From contig JALGSV010000030.1 in NCBI GenBank assembly GCA_029821755.1, positions 1 through 41,710 of the forward strand: 41,710 nt of DNA. Reading direction: 5' to 3'. Each line of letters opens with the position of its first letter. Positions within the stretch are counted from its first letter, which is position 1. The notes below the pieces were generated by a model that had not been told where the DNA came from, made no database searches, and saw only the letters and a program-made list of their open reading frames with translations. Shown piece after piece: positions 13,542-39,051 of this stretch. The position numbers and the translations under genes were made by a program. The DNA is from Candidatus Zipacnadum vermilionense. GTDB taxonomy: Bacteria; Armatimonadota; Zipacnadia; Zipacnadales; Zipacnadaceae.

Positions 13542-13683
13542 GGCGCCCTCCGCGGAGGCGAGCCTCCTGGCGAGTCCCGATACCTAGCCCGCCCCTCCCC
13601 CCCCCCGCGGAGCGCGGGCCAGAACGTCCGCGCCACGCGGACCAATTGCGGATCACATTTCCTTCGAGAGGAAAGAATACCAG

Positions 13684-20298: not shown

Positions 20299-20472
20299 GG
20301 GCGGATGTTGGGTTGTGTTCAGGAAGGCCGTTTCCGCGTGGGGCGGGCTGGAAGCCCGCCACGGCAGCCGCATGTTTGTGGGAGGGCGGGCTGGAAGCCC
20401 GCCCCACGCGGAGGGAGCACGCGCGGGCGGATGTTTCGCGGGATACGGCTCCGCGAAATATTCGCCCCTACG
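20294..20472 (+). repeat. composite nested palindromic element between lnt and tRNA-Pro
   Basis: Outer ends CGTAGGGGCGGATGTT (20294-20309) and its near-complement AATATTCGCCCCTACG (20457-20472) match at 14 of 16 bases. Inside are two copies of GGCGGGCTGGAAGCCCGCC (20342-20360 and 20385-20403); with their CCGCGTGG flanks they form a 27-nt inverted pair (20334-20360 and 20385-20411) that differs only in the central four bases. A third stem joins 20424-20440 to the segment ending at 20466. The TAG of lnt is in the left end. Confidence 0.8.
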
Positions 20473-29334: not shown

Positions 29335-29361
29335 CGGTCACGTCTCCCGTCGTTTCGTCCG

Positions 29362-29430
29362 CGTAGGGCGGGCTTCCAGCCCGCCTGGGGAACCCTCACC
29401 CCCTGCCCCCTCTCCTTGCAGGAGAGGGGG
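29362..29430 (+). repeat. two adjacent dispersed palindromes upstream of pheT
   Basis: GGCGGGCTTCCAGCCCGCC (29367-29385), a perfect palindrome of the family also found at 20342, 20385 and (degenerate) 37905, is followed by CCCTCACC and the 10-bp stem CCCCCTCTCC/GGAGAGGGGG (29406-29430), third copy of the CTCTCC/GGAGAG family. Both stand in the 142-bp gap between URO-D and pheT. Confidence 0.75.
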
Positions 29431-30624: not shown

Positions 30625-31677
30625 CTACTTTCCGTCCGCCCATTCCATGTCCATGGCCTCCCCGGCCTGCGCGCTCTCGGCAATGGTGGCGATGAGCTGG
30701 TCTACCACATATCCATCCCAGGCCGAGGGCTCCGGCGGCTCACCCACTTCGAAGCGCCGCAGCATCTCCGCCATCTCGGCGTGGAAGGCGTTGACCGCCG
30801 GGAAGCGGTACTCCGTCACCTTCCCGCTGGCGGCGTCCTGGTGGACCAGCAGGGCCGGGTTGCGCTCGGGCGCGTGCCACAGCACCGTGTACAGGTCCAG
30901 CCGCCCGCTGGCGGTGGTGATCTCCAGCCGCTCGTCCCAGCCGTTGCGCTCGTAGCCGGCGAACTGCAGCGGGTGCCAGTGCGCCTCGAAATGCCCCGCC
31001 GCGCCGTGCGGCAGCCACAGCAAGGCGTTGGTGGCCCGGTCGAAGTCCAGACCCTCCCGCGTGGCCATGTGCCCGCAGACGCGGCTGGGCCGGCCGGCGT
31101 ACCAGTGCACCAGGTCCAAAATGTGGCTCCCCCCGCACACCAGCGCCCCGCCCCCGTAGGCCCGCACCGGCGCCGAGGGCCGCTCCTTGGTCCACTCGCC
31201 GAGTGTCTCGTCCCACAGCTCCGCGTAGGGCTGCCAGGTTCGCGCGTACAGGCTGGTCACCGGCCCCATTTCCGCCAGTAGCCGCTTGGCCTGCTGCGAG
31301 GCCGGGAAGTGGCGCTTCATGTACGCCGTCGCACAGAAGACGCCCGCCGCTTCGGCTGCCCGCGCGATCTCCGCCGAAGCCGCCGGGTCATCGCTGAGCG
31401 TCTTCTCGCAGACCACGCCCTTGCCCGCGGCCAGCGCCGCCAGGCAGATCTCCCGGTGCGTAGACGAGGGCGTGAGCACGCTGACCAGGGCCACCTCTGG
31501 GTCGTCGAGCACCGCGCGGTAGTCGGTGCTGACCTTGGCCCCGTAGCGGTCGCCGACGGCCTGCGCCGCCTCGGGGCGCACATCGCACACGTGCGCAATC
31601 CGCGCCCCGGCCTTCTCGTAGCCCTCGTAGTGGAAGCGCGATATCCCGCCACAGCCAATGATGCCGATGTTGGTCAT
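30625..31677 (-). CDS. Gfo/Idh/MocA family NAD(P)-dependent oxidoreductase
   Basis: 350 residues from ATG 31677. The Rossmann motif is NIGIIGCGGISRFHYEGYEKAG, followed by VSVLTPSSTHREICLAALAAGKGVVCEKTLSDDP (EKT in place of the usual EKP), and a C-terminal beta-sheet domain with GGGALVCGGSHILDLVHWYAGRPSRVCGHM. Enzymes of this family oxidise or reduce sugars, inositols and related compounds; here the likely substrate is that of the surrounding cassette. The frame stays open upstream through the cloverleaf element, but the Rossmann motif fixes the start. The AACGAGAGG context before the start is repeated before URO-D B. Confidence 0.92.
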   Translation of the reverse strand: MTNIGIIGCGGISRFHYEGYEKAGARIAHVCDVRPEAAQAVGDRYGAKVSTDYRAVLDDPEVALVSVLTPSSTHREICLAALAAGKGVVCEKTLSDDPAASAEIARAAEAAGVFCATAYMKRHFPASQQAKRLLAEMGPVTSLYARTWQPYAELWDETLGEWTKERPSAPVRAYGGGALVCGGSHILDLVHWYAGRPSRVCGHMATREGLDFDRATNALLWLPHGAAGHFEAHWHPLQFAGYERNGWDERLEITTASGRLDLYTVLWHAPERNPALLVHQDAASGKVTEYRFPAVNAFHAEMAEMLRRFEVGEPPEPSAWDGYVVDQLIATIAESAQAGEAMDMEWADGK

Positions 31678-31702: not shown

Positions 31703-31862
31703 CCGGAGGGGCCGCATGGGTGGTTGCAGGCGGGGTCATTTCCCGCCTGCAGACGGGACCCATCCGGCCCGTCTGAGGGCGCTTCGTTAGCGCCAGCCGG
31801 GGGCCGGATGGGGCCTGTCTGCCCGCAAACAGCGCGGGCAGCCACCCATGCGGCCCCTCCGG
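31703..31862 (+). repeat. 160-bp cloverleaf-like element with perfect 21-bp terminal inverted repeats
   Basis: Terminal repeats 31703-31723 and 31842-31862 are exact reverse complements (left end begins CCGGAGGGGCCGCATGG). Three arms lie inside: A, TGCAGGCGGG/CCCGCCTGCA (31725-31751, 7-nt loop); B, CCCATCCGGCCC/GGGCCGGATGGG (31759-31770 with 31801-31812), extended outward by AGACGGG/CCTGTCT and capped by GGCGCT/AGCGCC (31778-31794); D, CTGCCCGC/GCGGGCAG (31819-31841). It fills the gap between the alcohol dehydrogenase stop (5 nt away) and the Gfo/Idh start. No coding potential is evident. Confidence 0.88.
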
Positions 31863-31866
31863 TGCG

Positions 31867-32910
31867 CTAGGCGATGAATCTCCCGTCCGGAATCACTGCC
31901 ACCTTCCGGGCGTTCTCGCGGTCTTCTCGTACGGTCCGGATAGCTTCCTCCAACCGGCTGAGCGGGTACCGGTGCGAGACGATCTCCTCCGCCGGGATCA
32001 CGCCGCGGCGGATTAGTTCCAGGGCCTCCGCCACATACAGCGCGGGCGAGTCCATCGACGACCGCAACTGCTTCTTCCCCGCGTGCAACTTGGTGGTATC
32101 GAGCGGAATGACCCCGCCCGGCCCCCAGTCGAAGCCGATGAAGACTACGTAGCCCCCGTAGGCCGCCGCCTCGATACAGTCCGGCAGCGTCTGCGGCGGG
32201 GCAGTGACCAGGACCTTGTCGAAGCCATCGTAGGGCTGGCCACACTCGGCCAGCGGCGTCTCGTTGGTGTTGACGACGGCGTCGGCGCCCAGGCGCTGGG
32301 CCACCTCCAGCTTCCCCCTCGCCCGTCCCGCCGCCACCACCGGCCCCCCGGTCAGCCGCCGCACTAGCGGCAGCGTCATCAGGCCGATCGCCCCCGCCCC
32401 CACCAGCAGCACCCGGTCGGTGAGGCCAATCTCGGCCAGCTTGACCATGTCCAGCGCCACCCCGCCCGGCTCGCCGATCATCGCCGCCGTCGGGTCCAGA
32501 CCGTGCGCCGGGACCGCGCTCTGCGCCGGAGACAGCATAGCCTCGGCGAAGCCCTGCGACACGCCGCCCCAGAAGCCGACGGTATGGGTGCACAGGTCCA
32601 CCCGCCCGTTGCGGCAGCGATCGCACACCCCGCAAAAAGAACTGGACTCCAGCGCCACCAGATCGCCCACCGCCACGTTGGTCACACCCTCCCCCACCTC
32701 GGCGACGATCCCGGCTATCTCATGTCCAAAGGCTTGTGGCTCCTTCGCCAGTTCCCCGGCGATCTCGATATCGTACCCGCAGATACCACAGGCGGCCACG
32801 TCCAGCAGAATCTGCCCCGGTCCCGGCGGCGGTAGCTCCACCTGCCGGAAGGAGACCTGGAAGGGCGCCTGGACATAGGCGGCGGTGACGGTGCAAGTTG
32901 GTGTGGACAT
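31867..32910 (-). CDS. zinc-dependent medium-chain alcohol dehydrogenase
   Basis: 347 residues from ATG 32910 (preceded by AAAGGA). Catalytic zinc ligands are C44 (ACGICGYD) and H63-E64 (FGHE); the structural zinc site is C93, C96, C99, C107 (CGVCDRCRNGRVDLC). The NAD(P) domain has VLLVGAGAIGLMTLPLVRRL. The family includes sorbitol, threonine and alcohol dehydrogenases. In this operon it stands between URO-D paralogue A and the Gfo/Idh oxidoreductase, and the two dehydrogenases may act in sequence on a sugar or polyol (inference). An open frame upstream of 32910 is palindrome sequence, not coding. Confidence 0.94.
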   Translation of the reverse strand: MSTPTCTVTAAYVQAPFQVSFRQVELPPPGPGQILLDVAACGICGYDIEIAGELAKEPQAFGHEIAGIVAEVGEGVTNVAVGDLVALESSSFCGVCDRCRNGRVDLCTHTVGFWGGVSQGFAEAMLSPAQSAVPAHGLDPTAAMIGEPGGVALDMVKLAEIGLTDRVLLVGAGAIGLMTLPLVRRLTGGPVVAAGRARGKLEVAQRLGADAVVNTNETPLAECGQPYDGFDKVLVTAPPQTLPDCIEAAAYGGYVVFIGFDWGPGGVIPLDTTKLHAGKKQLRSSMDSPALYVAEALELIRRGVIPAEEIVSHRYPLSRLEEAIRTVREDRENARKVAVIPDGRFIA

Positions 32911-32930
32911 GCTGGTTTCCTTTCGGTGGC

Positions 32931-32998
32931 GCCGGCGTCTCGCCGGCATTCTGATAGAGGCGGGGGTTCCGGCGGGAACGCCGGAGGATCCGCCTCTA
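32931..32998 (+). repeat. pair of palindromes bridging URO-D stop and alcohol dehydrogenase start
   Basis: GCCGGCG/CGCCGGC with loop TCT (32931-32947), then TAGAGGCGG/CCGCCTCTA (32955-32963 with 32990-32998) enclosing TCCGGCG/CGCCGGA with loop GGAA. The outermost triplet of the second palindrome (32996-32998) is the TAG stop of the URO-D gene on the minus strand. Confidence 0.8.
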
Positions 32999-37158: not shown

Positions 37159-39051
37159 CTACCTCCTCAGCAACTCCCCGAAGGTCATCCACACAATCCG
37201 CGGCAGCGCCGCCAGGCGCGGTAGTCGCTGCGGCTCCTTCACCGTCCGGTAAAGCCACTCCAGGCCGCAGCGCTGCATCCAGGCCGGGGCGCGCTGCTTG
37301 CGGCCGGAGATCACGTCCAGGCTCCCGCCGATGCCGATGCACACCGGCACCCCCAGGTCCGCCAGGTGCGCCTTGATCCACTTCTCCTGCCGCGGAATTC
37401 CCATCGCCACCAGCAGCAGACCAGGGCGCTGCTCCCGGATGTCGGCGATGATCCGCTGTTCCTCTTCCTCGTCGAAGTACCCGTCATGCACCCCTGCCAC
37501 CTGCAGTGCGCCGATACGCTCCTGCAGCTTCCGGGCCGCCTCCTCCGCCACCCCCGGCGCCGCGCCCAGGAAGTACACGCTCCGCCCCTGCGCCGCGGCC
37601 ACCGCGCACAGGTCGCCCACCAGGTCACATCCCGACACCTTGTCCCACAGGGGCAGGTCCAGCAGCTTGGAGGCCAACACCACCCCCGCCCCGTCGGCGG
37701 TGACCAGGTCGGCCTCGTTCATGATCTCCCGGAACTCGGGGTCGTCGTGGGCCCGCACCACCGCCGAGGCGTCGGAGGTGACGACCATATGCGGATGTCC
37801 CTCCTGCATGAACCCGCCCACTGACTCCAGCGCCCCTTGGTAGGTGACGGCATGGAGCCGGACCCCCAACAGCCAGACCTCCTCCGCAGCGGGCGGCTCC
37901 CCGTGGGGCGGGCTTTCTCCCCTGCCCTCCCCCGCGCGGGCTGGGAAGCCCGCGCCACGCGGACGGGGCAGCAACCTCGCCACCACATGGAACAGGACCC
38001 CGCCCCCCGCCAACCCCGCCACCAGCACCACCGTCTTGATCAGGAACAACACCTCAATCATCGCCACCAGCAGCAGCGCCAACGCACACAGGTACGCCGA
38101 CCCGGCCAGCAGCAGCGTGACCACCTGGCCGCGGCTGTATCCCTGGGAGAGCAACAGCATATCGAGATTCTGCCGCCGCCGCTGGACGGAGACCGCCCGC
38201 CCCCCATGCCGCAAGTCCGCGACGTAGGTGTAGGTGACGGAAAAGAGGGGAACACCAATGAGCAGTAGAGGCAGCAGCGCGACCAGGAAGGCCGCGGCGT
38301 CCAGCGCGAGCACGATCGCCAGGCCGCCGAGCAGGAAGCCCACGGTCATAGCCCCGGCCCGGGCGCTGTTGCACGACAGCCGCCGCGCCCAGGGGAGTTG
38401 CAGGAGGAAGACCGGGGCCATGCTCCCGGCCATGGCCAGCTCGGCCGGCATCAGAGGGGGCGGCAGATGCACCAGGTTGAAGATGCCGAGGAAGGTCAGA
38501 GAGGCCAGGCCCGCCACGCCTAGCGGAATTTCCAGCAGGGCAGCGTTCCAGCCAAAGACGGTCGCGCATAGCACCAGCCACACGATGGTGACCGCTGGCC
38601 CCGCCCAGTCCAGGGAGACGAATTCGGGGGAGAAGGGGTACTTGACCTCGGAAATGACCACGCCGCCCCACAGGACGAGGCCGGCCCCGATGAGCAGAGC
38701 CGGCAGCGCCGCCACTTGCCGCCAGTTCAACCAGTCTGCTACGGAGGTCAACAGCCAGACCGCCGCTCCGCCCAGCAGCAAAGCGGCATACGGCCGGGGC
38801 GGCACGAGCCACGGCCCCACGGATACCGGCAATTGCCCCCCAGGCTCCCAGGGCCAGGCGAAGTCGAAGCCGACCCGGACGCCCCACGCCGCCGCCAGCG
38901 AGAGCAGCGTCACCGGGCCGACCAGGTCCAGGCGTGCCCGCGTTGGCCTCCGCGCTTGGCCACGACGCCCTACCACCGCAAAGAGGGGCGCCAGCAGCAA
39001 GGGCGCGACTAGGGGCGCCGCGGTAGTGAGCCAGCATACTAGTCGGCCCAT
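37159..39051 (-). CDS. wecG: WecG/TagA/CpsF-type (GT26) glycosyltransferase fused to a degenerate WecA/TagO-like membrane domain
   Basis: 630 residues. Residues ~392-630 are a GT26 enzyme: DADLVTADGAGVVLA (D453; read here as EADLVTADG), VYFLGAAPGVAEEAARKL, GIPRQEKW (551-558), GIGGSLDVISG (573-583) and RAPAWMQRCGLEWLYRTVKEPQR. Such enzymes add N-acetylmannosaminuronate or ManNAc to lipid-linked GlcNAc. Residues 1-360 have ~10 membrane helices with the order of a polyprenyl-phosphate GlcNAc-1-phosphate transferase (PSFEFVSLDW-like loop at 139-149, GFLLGGLAIV at 238-247), but the acidic catalytic motifs are gone. The linker (~362-390) is encoded by a dispersed palindrome. ATG 39051 lies 10 nt after the leuB stop. 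Confidence 0.85.
   Translation of the reverse strand: MGRLVCWLTTAAPLVAPLLLAPLFAVVGRRGQARRPTRARLDLVGPVTLLSLAAAWGVRVGFDFAWPWEPGGQLPVSVGPWLVPPRPYAALLLGGAAVWLLTSVADWLNWRQVAALPALLIGAGLVLWGGVVISEVKYPFSPEFVSLDWAGPAVTIVWLVLCATVFGWNAALLEIPLGVAGLASLTFLGIFNLVHLPPPLMPAELAMAGSMAPVFLLQLPWARRLSCNSARAGAMTVGFLLGGLAIVLALDAAAFLVALLPLLLIGVPLFSVTYTYVADLRHGGRAVSVQRRRQNLDMLLLSQGYSRGQVVTLLLAGSAYLCALALLLVAMIEVLFLIKTVVLVAGLAGGGVLFHVVARLLPRPRGAGFPARAGEGRGESPPHGEPPAAEEVWLLGVRLHAVTYQGALESVGGFMQEGHPHMVVTSDASAVVRAHDDPEFREIMNEADLVTADGAGVVLASKLLDLPLWDKVSGCDLVGDLCAVAAAQGRSVYFLGAAPGVAEEAARKLQERIGALQVAGVHDGYFDEEEEQRIIADIREQRPGLLLVAMGIPRQEKWIKAHLADLGVPVCIGIGGSLDVISGRKQRAPAWMQRCGLEWLYRTVKEPQRLPRLAALPRIVWMTFGELLRR
37905..37960 (+). 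repeat. intragenic copy of the GGCGGGCT palindrome in the wecG linker
   Basis: GGGGCGGGCT near 37914 and the perfect stem GCGCGGGCT/AGCCCGCGC (37934-37942 with 37947-37955, loop GGGA), flanked by CACGCGG, match the 20334-20411 element in outline. Read in frame it encodes the Pro/Gly/Arg-rich linker between the two domains of the fusion protein. Confidence 0.65.

Follow-up and report, generated by a model that had tools for sequence, protein, structure and literature searches.

A probable REPIN with GGAG-footed REP units in 'Candidatus Zipacnadum vermilionense'

The closest described systems are the REPIN/BIME elements and their RAYT (Bertels and Rainey 2011, PMC3116915; Nunvar et al. 2010, PMC2817692). 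The moving entity is thought to be the REPIN and not the single REP (PMC3116915), and two ways of folding it, as a long hairpin or as a 'clover', have been described (PMC3116915, PMC2817692). Published REPs have the foot GT[AG]G (PMC6006769, PMC2817692, PMC3733652). In Escherichia coli, single-stranded REP is bound by the RAYT, which requires the tetranucleotide and a mismatch and cuts at a CT beside the unit (PMC8266576), and His101 is among the RAYT residues that contact the guide (PMC6006769). How a RAYT chooses its own REP among the several present in one cell is not settled. A literature search found no REPs reported in Zipacnadia.

The window analysed here is the whole 41,710-nt stretch of contig JALGSV010000030.1 (assembly GCA_029821755.1), and the 160-bp element that it contains at positions 31703–31862 is described in Table 1. 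Reverse-complementing the first 21 bases of the element (CCGGAGGGGCCGCATGGGTGG) gives its last 21 bases without a mismatch, which confirmed the inverted ends reported in the initial annotation. RNA folding gave −141.9 kcal/mol for the plus strand (z −13.9) and −131.9 kcal/mol for the minus strand (z −12.2), values equalled by none of 200 dinucleotide shuffles in either case. The fold consists of a closing stem, a side arm of about 10 bp, an inner stem with a 6-bp hairpin cap and a second side arm of 7–8 bp. DNA parameters led to the identical four-way fold (−81.9 kcal/mol, versus about −59 for the units and spacer folded separately), and the four-way junction with further stems that had been proposed was thus recovered on both RNA strands and in DNA. 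The parts of this structure were re-assigned. What had been called 21-bp terminal inverted repeats are rather the 5′ halves of two inverted repeat units of about 60 nt, whose apical hairpins form the side arms.

Table 1. Features of the window element, its neighbouring genes and the RAYT locus on contig C75 (positions without a contig name are those of the window)
Feature	Position	Strand	Evidence
Whole element, very probably a REPIN (inverted REP-unit doublet, four-way junction)	31703..31862		Folding; doublet spacing and orientation
Left REP unit, 67 nt	31705..31771	+	Covariance model R1, 69.3 bits, E 3.5e-11
Predicted guide tetranucleotide GGAG, foot of left unit	31705..31708	+	Exact in 21/26 own-genome units; also in RAYT-flanking units of relatives
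Lower-stem 5′ arm GGGCCG (partner CGGCCC at 31765–31770)	31709..31714	+	Watson-Crick in 88–100% of 26 units per pair
Apical hairpin of left unit, hypervariable, structure-conserved	31724..31751	+	Self-pairing exceeds permuted arms (0/20,000)
Spacer, 28 nt, with its own 6-bp hairpin (31778–31783 with 31789–31794)	31772..31799		RNA fold; doublet spacer lengths
Right REP unit, 61 nt, inverted	31800..31860	−	R1, 84.0 bits, E 2.3e-14
GGAG foot of right unit	31857–31860	−	Part of right REP unit
Apical hairpin of right unit, hypervariable, structure-conserved	31820..31841	−	Unit alignment and pairing test
Zinc-binding alcohol dehydrogenase (ADH) family gene, upstream of element	31867..32949	−	Pfam ADH_N, ADH_zinc_N
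GFO/IDH/MocA oxidoreductase (GFO) gene, downstream of element	30625..31677	−	Pfam GFO_IDH_MocA
RAYT gene, 161 aa, intact	C75:52074–52559	−	Pfam Y1_Tnp, NCBIfam REP_Tyr_transpos
REP unit flanking RAYT, 13 nt off	C75:51998–52060	+	R1
REP unit flanking RAYT, 13 nt off	C75:52573–52633	−	R1

Copies recovered by searching the host genome almost all ended at a common terminus. Aligned, they define a unit of about 60 nt composed of GGAG, GGGCCG(C/G)AT(G/A)GGTGG, a variable hairpin and GAC(G/A)G..CCCATCCGGCCC. A covariance model (R1) was built from the unit alignment and used to search the host genome with a cut-off of E < 1e-3, each place being counted on one strand only. This search found a dispersed family beyond the window locus, with about 26 units of 54–67 nt, fewer than the usual >100 copies. 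Three tight doublets were present, with spacers of 23, 23 and 28 nt (the last in the window) and all in plus then minus orientation, compared to a chance expectation of about 0.02. Units also occur singly in the host genome and in tandem in a relative (G002). With a rough gene caller, 24 of the 26 units were wholly extragenic and the copies were located between many unrelated genes, and by the same caller several units start 1–12 nt from a stop codon on the coding strand. One unit (bases 1501–1561 of locus L034; C16:15634–15694) was placed by this caller within a long predicted open frame.

The GGGCCG/CGGCCC lower stem forms an invariant frame across the 26 units (Table 1). Nine units have exchanged G-C for A-T at pair 14 of the middle stem, with both partners changed, and four units have done so at pair 16. 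A conserved mismatch or bulge in the stem marks canonical REPs of the group 2 type; here 15/26 units have a C:C mismatch at position 11 and ten others a G-C pair. The apical arms differ widely in sequence from copy to copy, and each pairs better with itself than with the arms of other copies (141/168 positions, a value not reached in 20,000 permutations); structure is probably the only constraint on the variable arm. Uncompensated stem changes or a lack of homologues, which the initial annotation had named as evidence against its reading, were both checked for and neither was found. A chance palindrome, or a fold arising from high GC content alone, might be suspected in a GC-rich genome (67% in the window) where palindromes are common. 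The probability of this is practically nil, given a z of about −14 against dinucleotide shuffles and a dispersed homologous family with compensated changes, and the explanation was rejected on the shuffles, the R1 family and the compensation.

When the host genome was searched with Pfam Y1_Tnp, one match was found to lie between two REP units on contig C75. The GGAG ends of these flanking units face outward, exactly as in the window element. The encoded protein passes the NCBIfam REP_Tyr_transpos model (81.9 bits, cut-off 80). Its closest solved structure by sequence is E. coli TnpA-REP (PDB 4ER8), which was also the best Foldseek match to the AlphaFold model of the protein (pLDDT 88; E 1.1e-9, 24% identity). 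The HUH histidines and the tyrosine aligned with E. coli Y115 show no variation in the alignments. At the equivalents of the E. coli residues His101 and Arg104, which contact the guide, the protein has Ala and Lys, and reading of GGAG by this RAYT is therefore only putative.

Further palindromes and Y1 genes were seen in the same genome. Another family of palindromic repeats (CGCGTGGGGCGGGCT..AGCCCGCCCCACGCG), some of them arranged as inverted pairs, is found in the window at 20333–20412, 29358–29385 and 37880–37970, and also at 13595–13642. A similar palindrome flanks the Y1 gene at C71:182749–183168 and, because like palindromes flank this gene, the family looks like a GTGG-type REPIN with its own RAYT. 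Two other Y1 genes, L058 (C22:2019–2441) and L056 (C63:39057–39491), are flanked by GTAG-footed palindromes (GGTAGCACAGGCTT.. and GGTAGCGCAGGCGTC.., respectively). At least four sets of RAYT and REP seem to be present in the host genome.

Among 61 genomes, 20 (own included) contained R1 matches and 35 contained matches to the RAYT protein. The relatives carrying the units, as judged from named loci, belong to Armatimonadota, mostly to 'Candidatus Zipacnadia'. In most of the relatives' RAYT loci that were inspected, the units adjoining the gene start with GGAGGGGCCG and end with CGGCCC, and their middle parts are genome-specific. The gene order around the window element is kept in a congener (G001), where the element is absent and no R1 match was found at the orthologous junction. 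The intergenic DNA of the congener has diverged, its spacer of about 230 nt being unrelated sequence, and for this reason no base-for-base empty site for the window copy was found there. At another junction with the same gene order, the two genes are 7 nt apart in G032; in G016, >300 nt of repeats, a GGAG unit among them, lie between the genes. The search for empty sites proposed in the initial annotation thus gave absence of the element in the congener and presence/absence between G032 and G016, without an exact empty site. At three loci of G016 (L204–L206), GGAG-REP doublets with their heads inward are nested in a larger repeat with inverted-looking outer parts (..TAGTTATGCAGATTCTTGGTTTGTGACC..), which is possibly another miniature element.

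The target duplication that had been expected is not visible around 31703–31862. Target duplication on insertion is not known for Y1 elements of the IS200/IS605 kind. The missing duplication also bears on whether the element is a MITE of another transposase, either DDE or a Y1 of the TIR-associated 'TIRYT' type, with ordinary 21-bp terminal inverted repeats. Perfect inverted ends and multiple copies would suit such an element, and TIR-flanked Y1 genes have been described, some in species without GTAG repeats (PMC3733652). However, the ends are whole foldable units that are also found singly and, in G002, in tandem, and these units lie on either side of a RAYT-type gene both here and in relatives. 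Together with the lack of a visible duplication, this makes a MITE very improbable.

We therefore consider that the 160-bp element is very probably a REPIN, that is, two inverted REP units and a short spacer, non-autonomous and mobilised in trans by a RAYT, because its units belong to a multicopy family with compensated changes, form doublets, flank the C75 RAYT gene in the orientation seen in the window, keep this association with RAYT genes in relatives, and are absent from the congener junction. Going by the E. coli and Pseudomonas systems, the units would fold when DNA is single-stranded, for example in the lagging-strand template, and the features read by the RAYT would be the foot (GGAG), the lower stem (GGGCCG) and the mismatch. 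Its HUH/Tyr active site would then cut beside the unit, at a site, on a strand and through an intermediate that are predicted by analogy, and the doublet would be moved, mostly into intergenic DNA. CT was not enriched upstream of the 26 units (12/26 versus a 39% background). A C at position −3 before GGAG was present in 19/26 own-genome units (binomial p about 7e-5, picked after viewing 14 positions) and could reflect a target or cleavage site.

Pfam upheld the dehydrogenase and oxidoreductase flanks of the initial annotation, with the order ADH, element, GFO on the minus strand. The two genes are a probable operon. The gap between them is 189 nt and nearly all element, which begins 4 nt past one stop codon and ends 25 nt ahead of the next start. 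Since the window copy sits within this probable operon, the ADH-GFO transcript must contain a very stable fold, and an effect on RNA 3′-end stability or on downstream translation would therefore be a likely passenger effect; an RNA-level effect on the operon is possible. A stronger claim would be that the element is a domesticated structured RNA, retained for a fold in the ADH-GFO transcript that would make the upstream 3′ end more stable or damp down the downstream gene, and this is compatible with a mobile origin. The probable-operon position, the −132 kcal/mol fold on the coding strand and the several units that lie 1–12 nt from a stop codon on that strand are all in keeping with domestication, and such roles have been credited to REPs generally (PMC3733652). 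We consider it unlikely, as copies are found between many unrelated genes, the congener keeps the ADH-GFO pair without the element, and no Rfam family matched at gathering score, the sub-threshold matches being mostly to microRNA-like hairpins. Of the two possibilities originally offered, a non-autonomous mobile element or a structured RNA, the first is thus supported by the dispersed copies, the compensation, presence/absence and the cognate RAYT, whereas the second found no Rfam match at gathering score and faces many different gene contexts.

The foot of the units is GGAG in 21/26 cases in this genome and GTAG or GTGG in none. GGAG was not found as a published REP head in the literature checked, which gives GT[AG]G only. 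Other Y1 genes in the host genome, whose flanking palindromes have GTGG or GTAG feet, serve as an internal control. In a survey of the flanks of 80 RAYT loci, in which the foot labels were partly assigned by eye and some loci had no clear repeat, GTAG prevailed outside the Zipacnadia lineage and GGAG was found within it and in four Acidobacteria. On the RAYT tree, the foot label required 2 changes, compared to 20.8 for shuffled labels. The Zipacnadia RAYTs form one clade of 23 rows (support 99/95), 22 of them GGAG and one without a label. The four Acidobacteria loci (L147, L150, L162 and L197) have short GGAG-footed palindromes, e.g. GGAGAGCGACGGCTTTAGCCGTCGCT, and their RAYTs fall in a clade apart from that of Armatimonadota, possibly a second origin of the GGAG guide.

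The residue equivalent to His101 is Arg in 17/22 of the Zipacnadia GGAG clade and His in 35/39 GTAG RAYTs. As the RAYT of this genome has Ala and the four Acidobacteria rows are mixed at this position, a link between protein residue and guide can be taken only as a lead from sequence comparison. A tentative proposal, which we find plausible while leaning slightly against it, is that the RAYT guide switched from GTAG to GGAG throughout the lineage, in step with changes in the guide-contacting segment (E. coli positions 99–104). If true, this switch would represent a natural guide-recognition code, accompanied by REPs with an apical arm free in sequence and constrained to pair. RAYTs with GGAG, GTGG and GTAG repeats coexist in one genome, and in an entire RAYT clade guide position 2 has changed and positions 3–4 have not; together these offer a ready comparison for the guide-reading residues and for complementarity between guide and cleavage site.

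These findings extend the REP-RAYT system to Armatimonadota (Zipacnadia), where it was undescribed in the literature found. The element is of an ordinary kind, a REPIN, set apart by a different guide, by the greater length of its units and by arms that vary yet stay paired. As in REPIN/BIME systems (PMC3116915, PMC2817692), an inverted REP doublet with a short spacer is dispersed and extragenic, the RAYT gene is flanked by like inverted REPs, and the palindromes are kept by complementary changes. It differs in having GGAG rather than GT[AG]G, units of about 60 nt rather than 20–40, a hypervariable paired apical arm and few copies. Because this arm is hypervariable yet paired, the fully paired doublet is a four-way junction. 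E. coli TnpA-REP and its y/z REPs (4ER8; PMC8266576) share the HUH motif and single tyrosine and a long REP with a 5′ tetranucleotide and a mismatch in the stem (seen here in 15/26 units), but guide position 2 is G here and T there, the proteins are 24% identical over the structural match, and His101/Arg104 are replaced by Ala/Lys. TIRYT/TIRtron elements (PMC3733652) are similar in that their Y1 genes occur in species without GTAG REPs and are flanked by inverted repeats; their TIRs were described as unrelated to REPs, whereas the flanks here follow the REP plan of a foot and an often mismatched hairpin. Shared with IS200/IS605 elements (IS608, ISDra2) are the Y1 HUH fold of the transposase, hairpins in single-stranded DNA and tetranucleotide guides (PMC8266576). 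In contrast to these, a single transposase gene here accompanies many gene-less doublets, with about 26 units to one gene.
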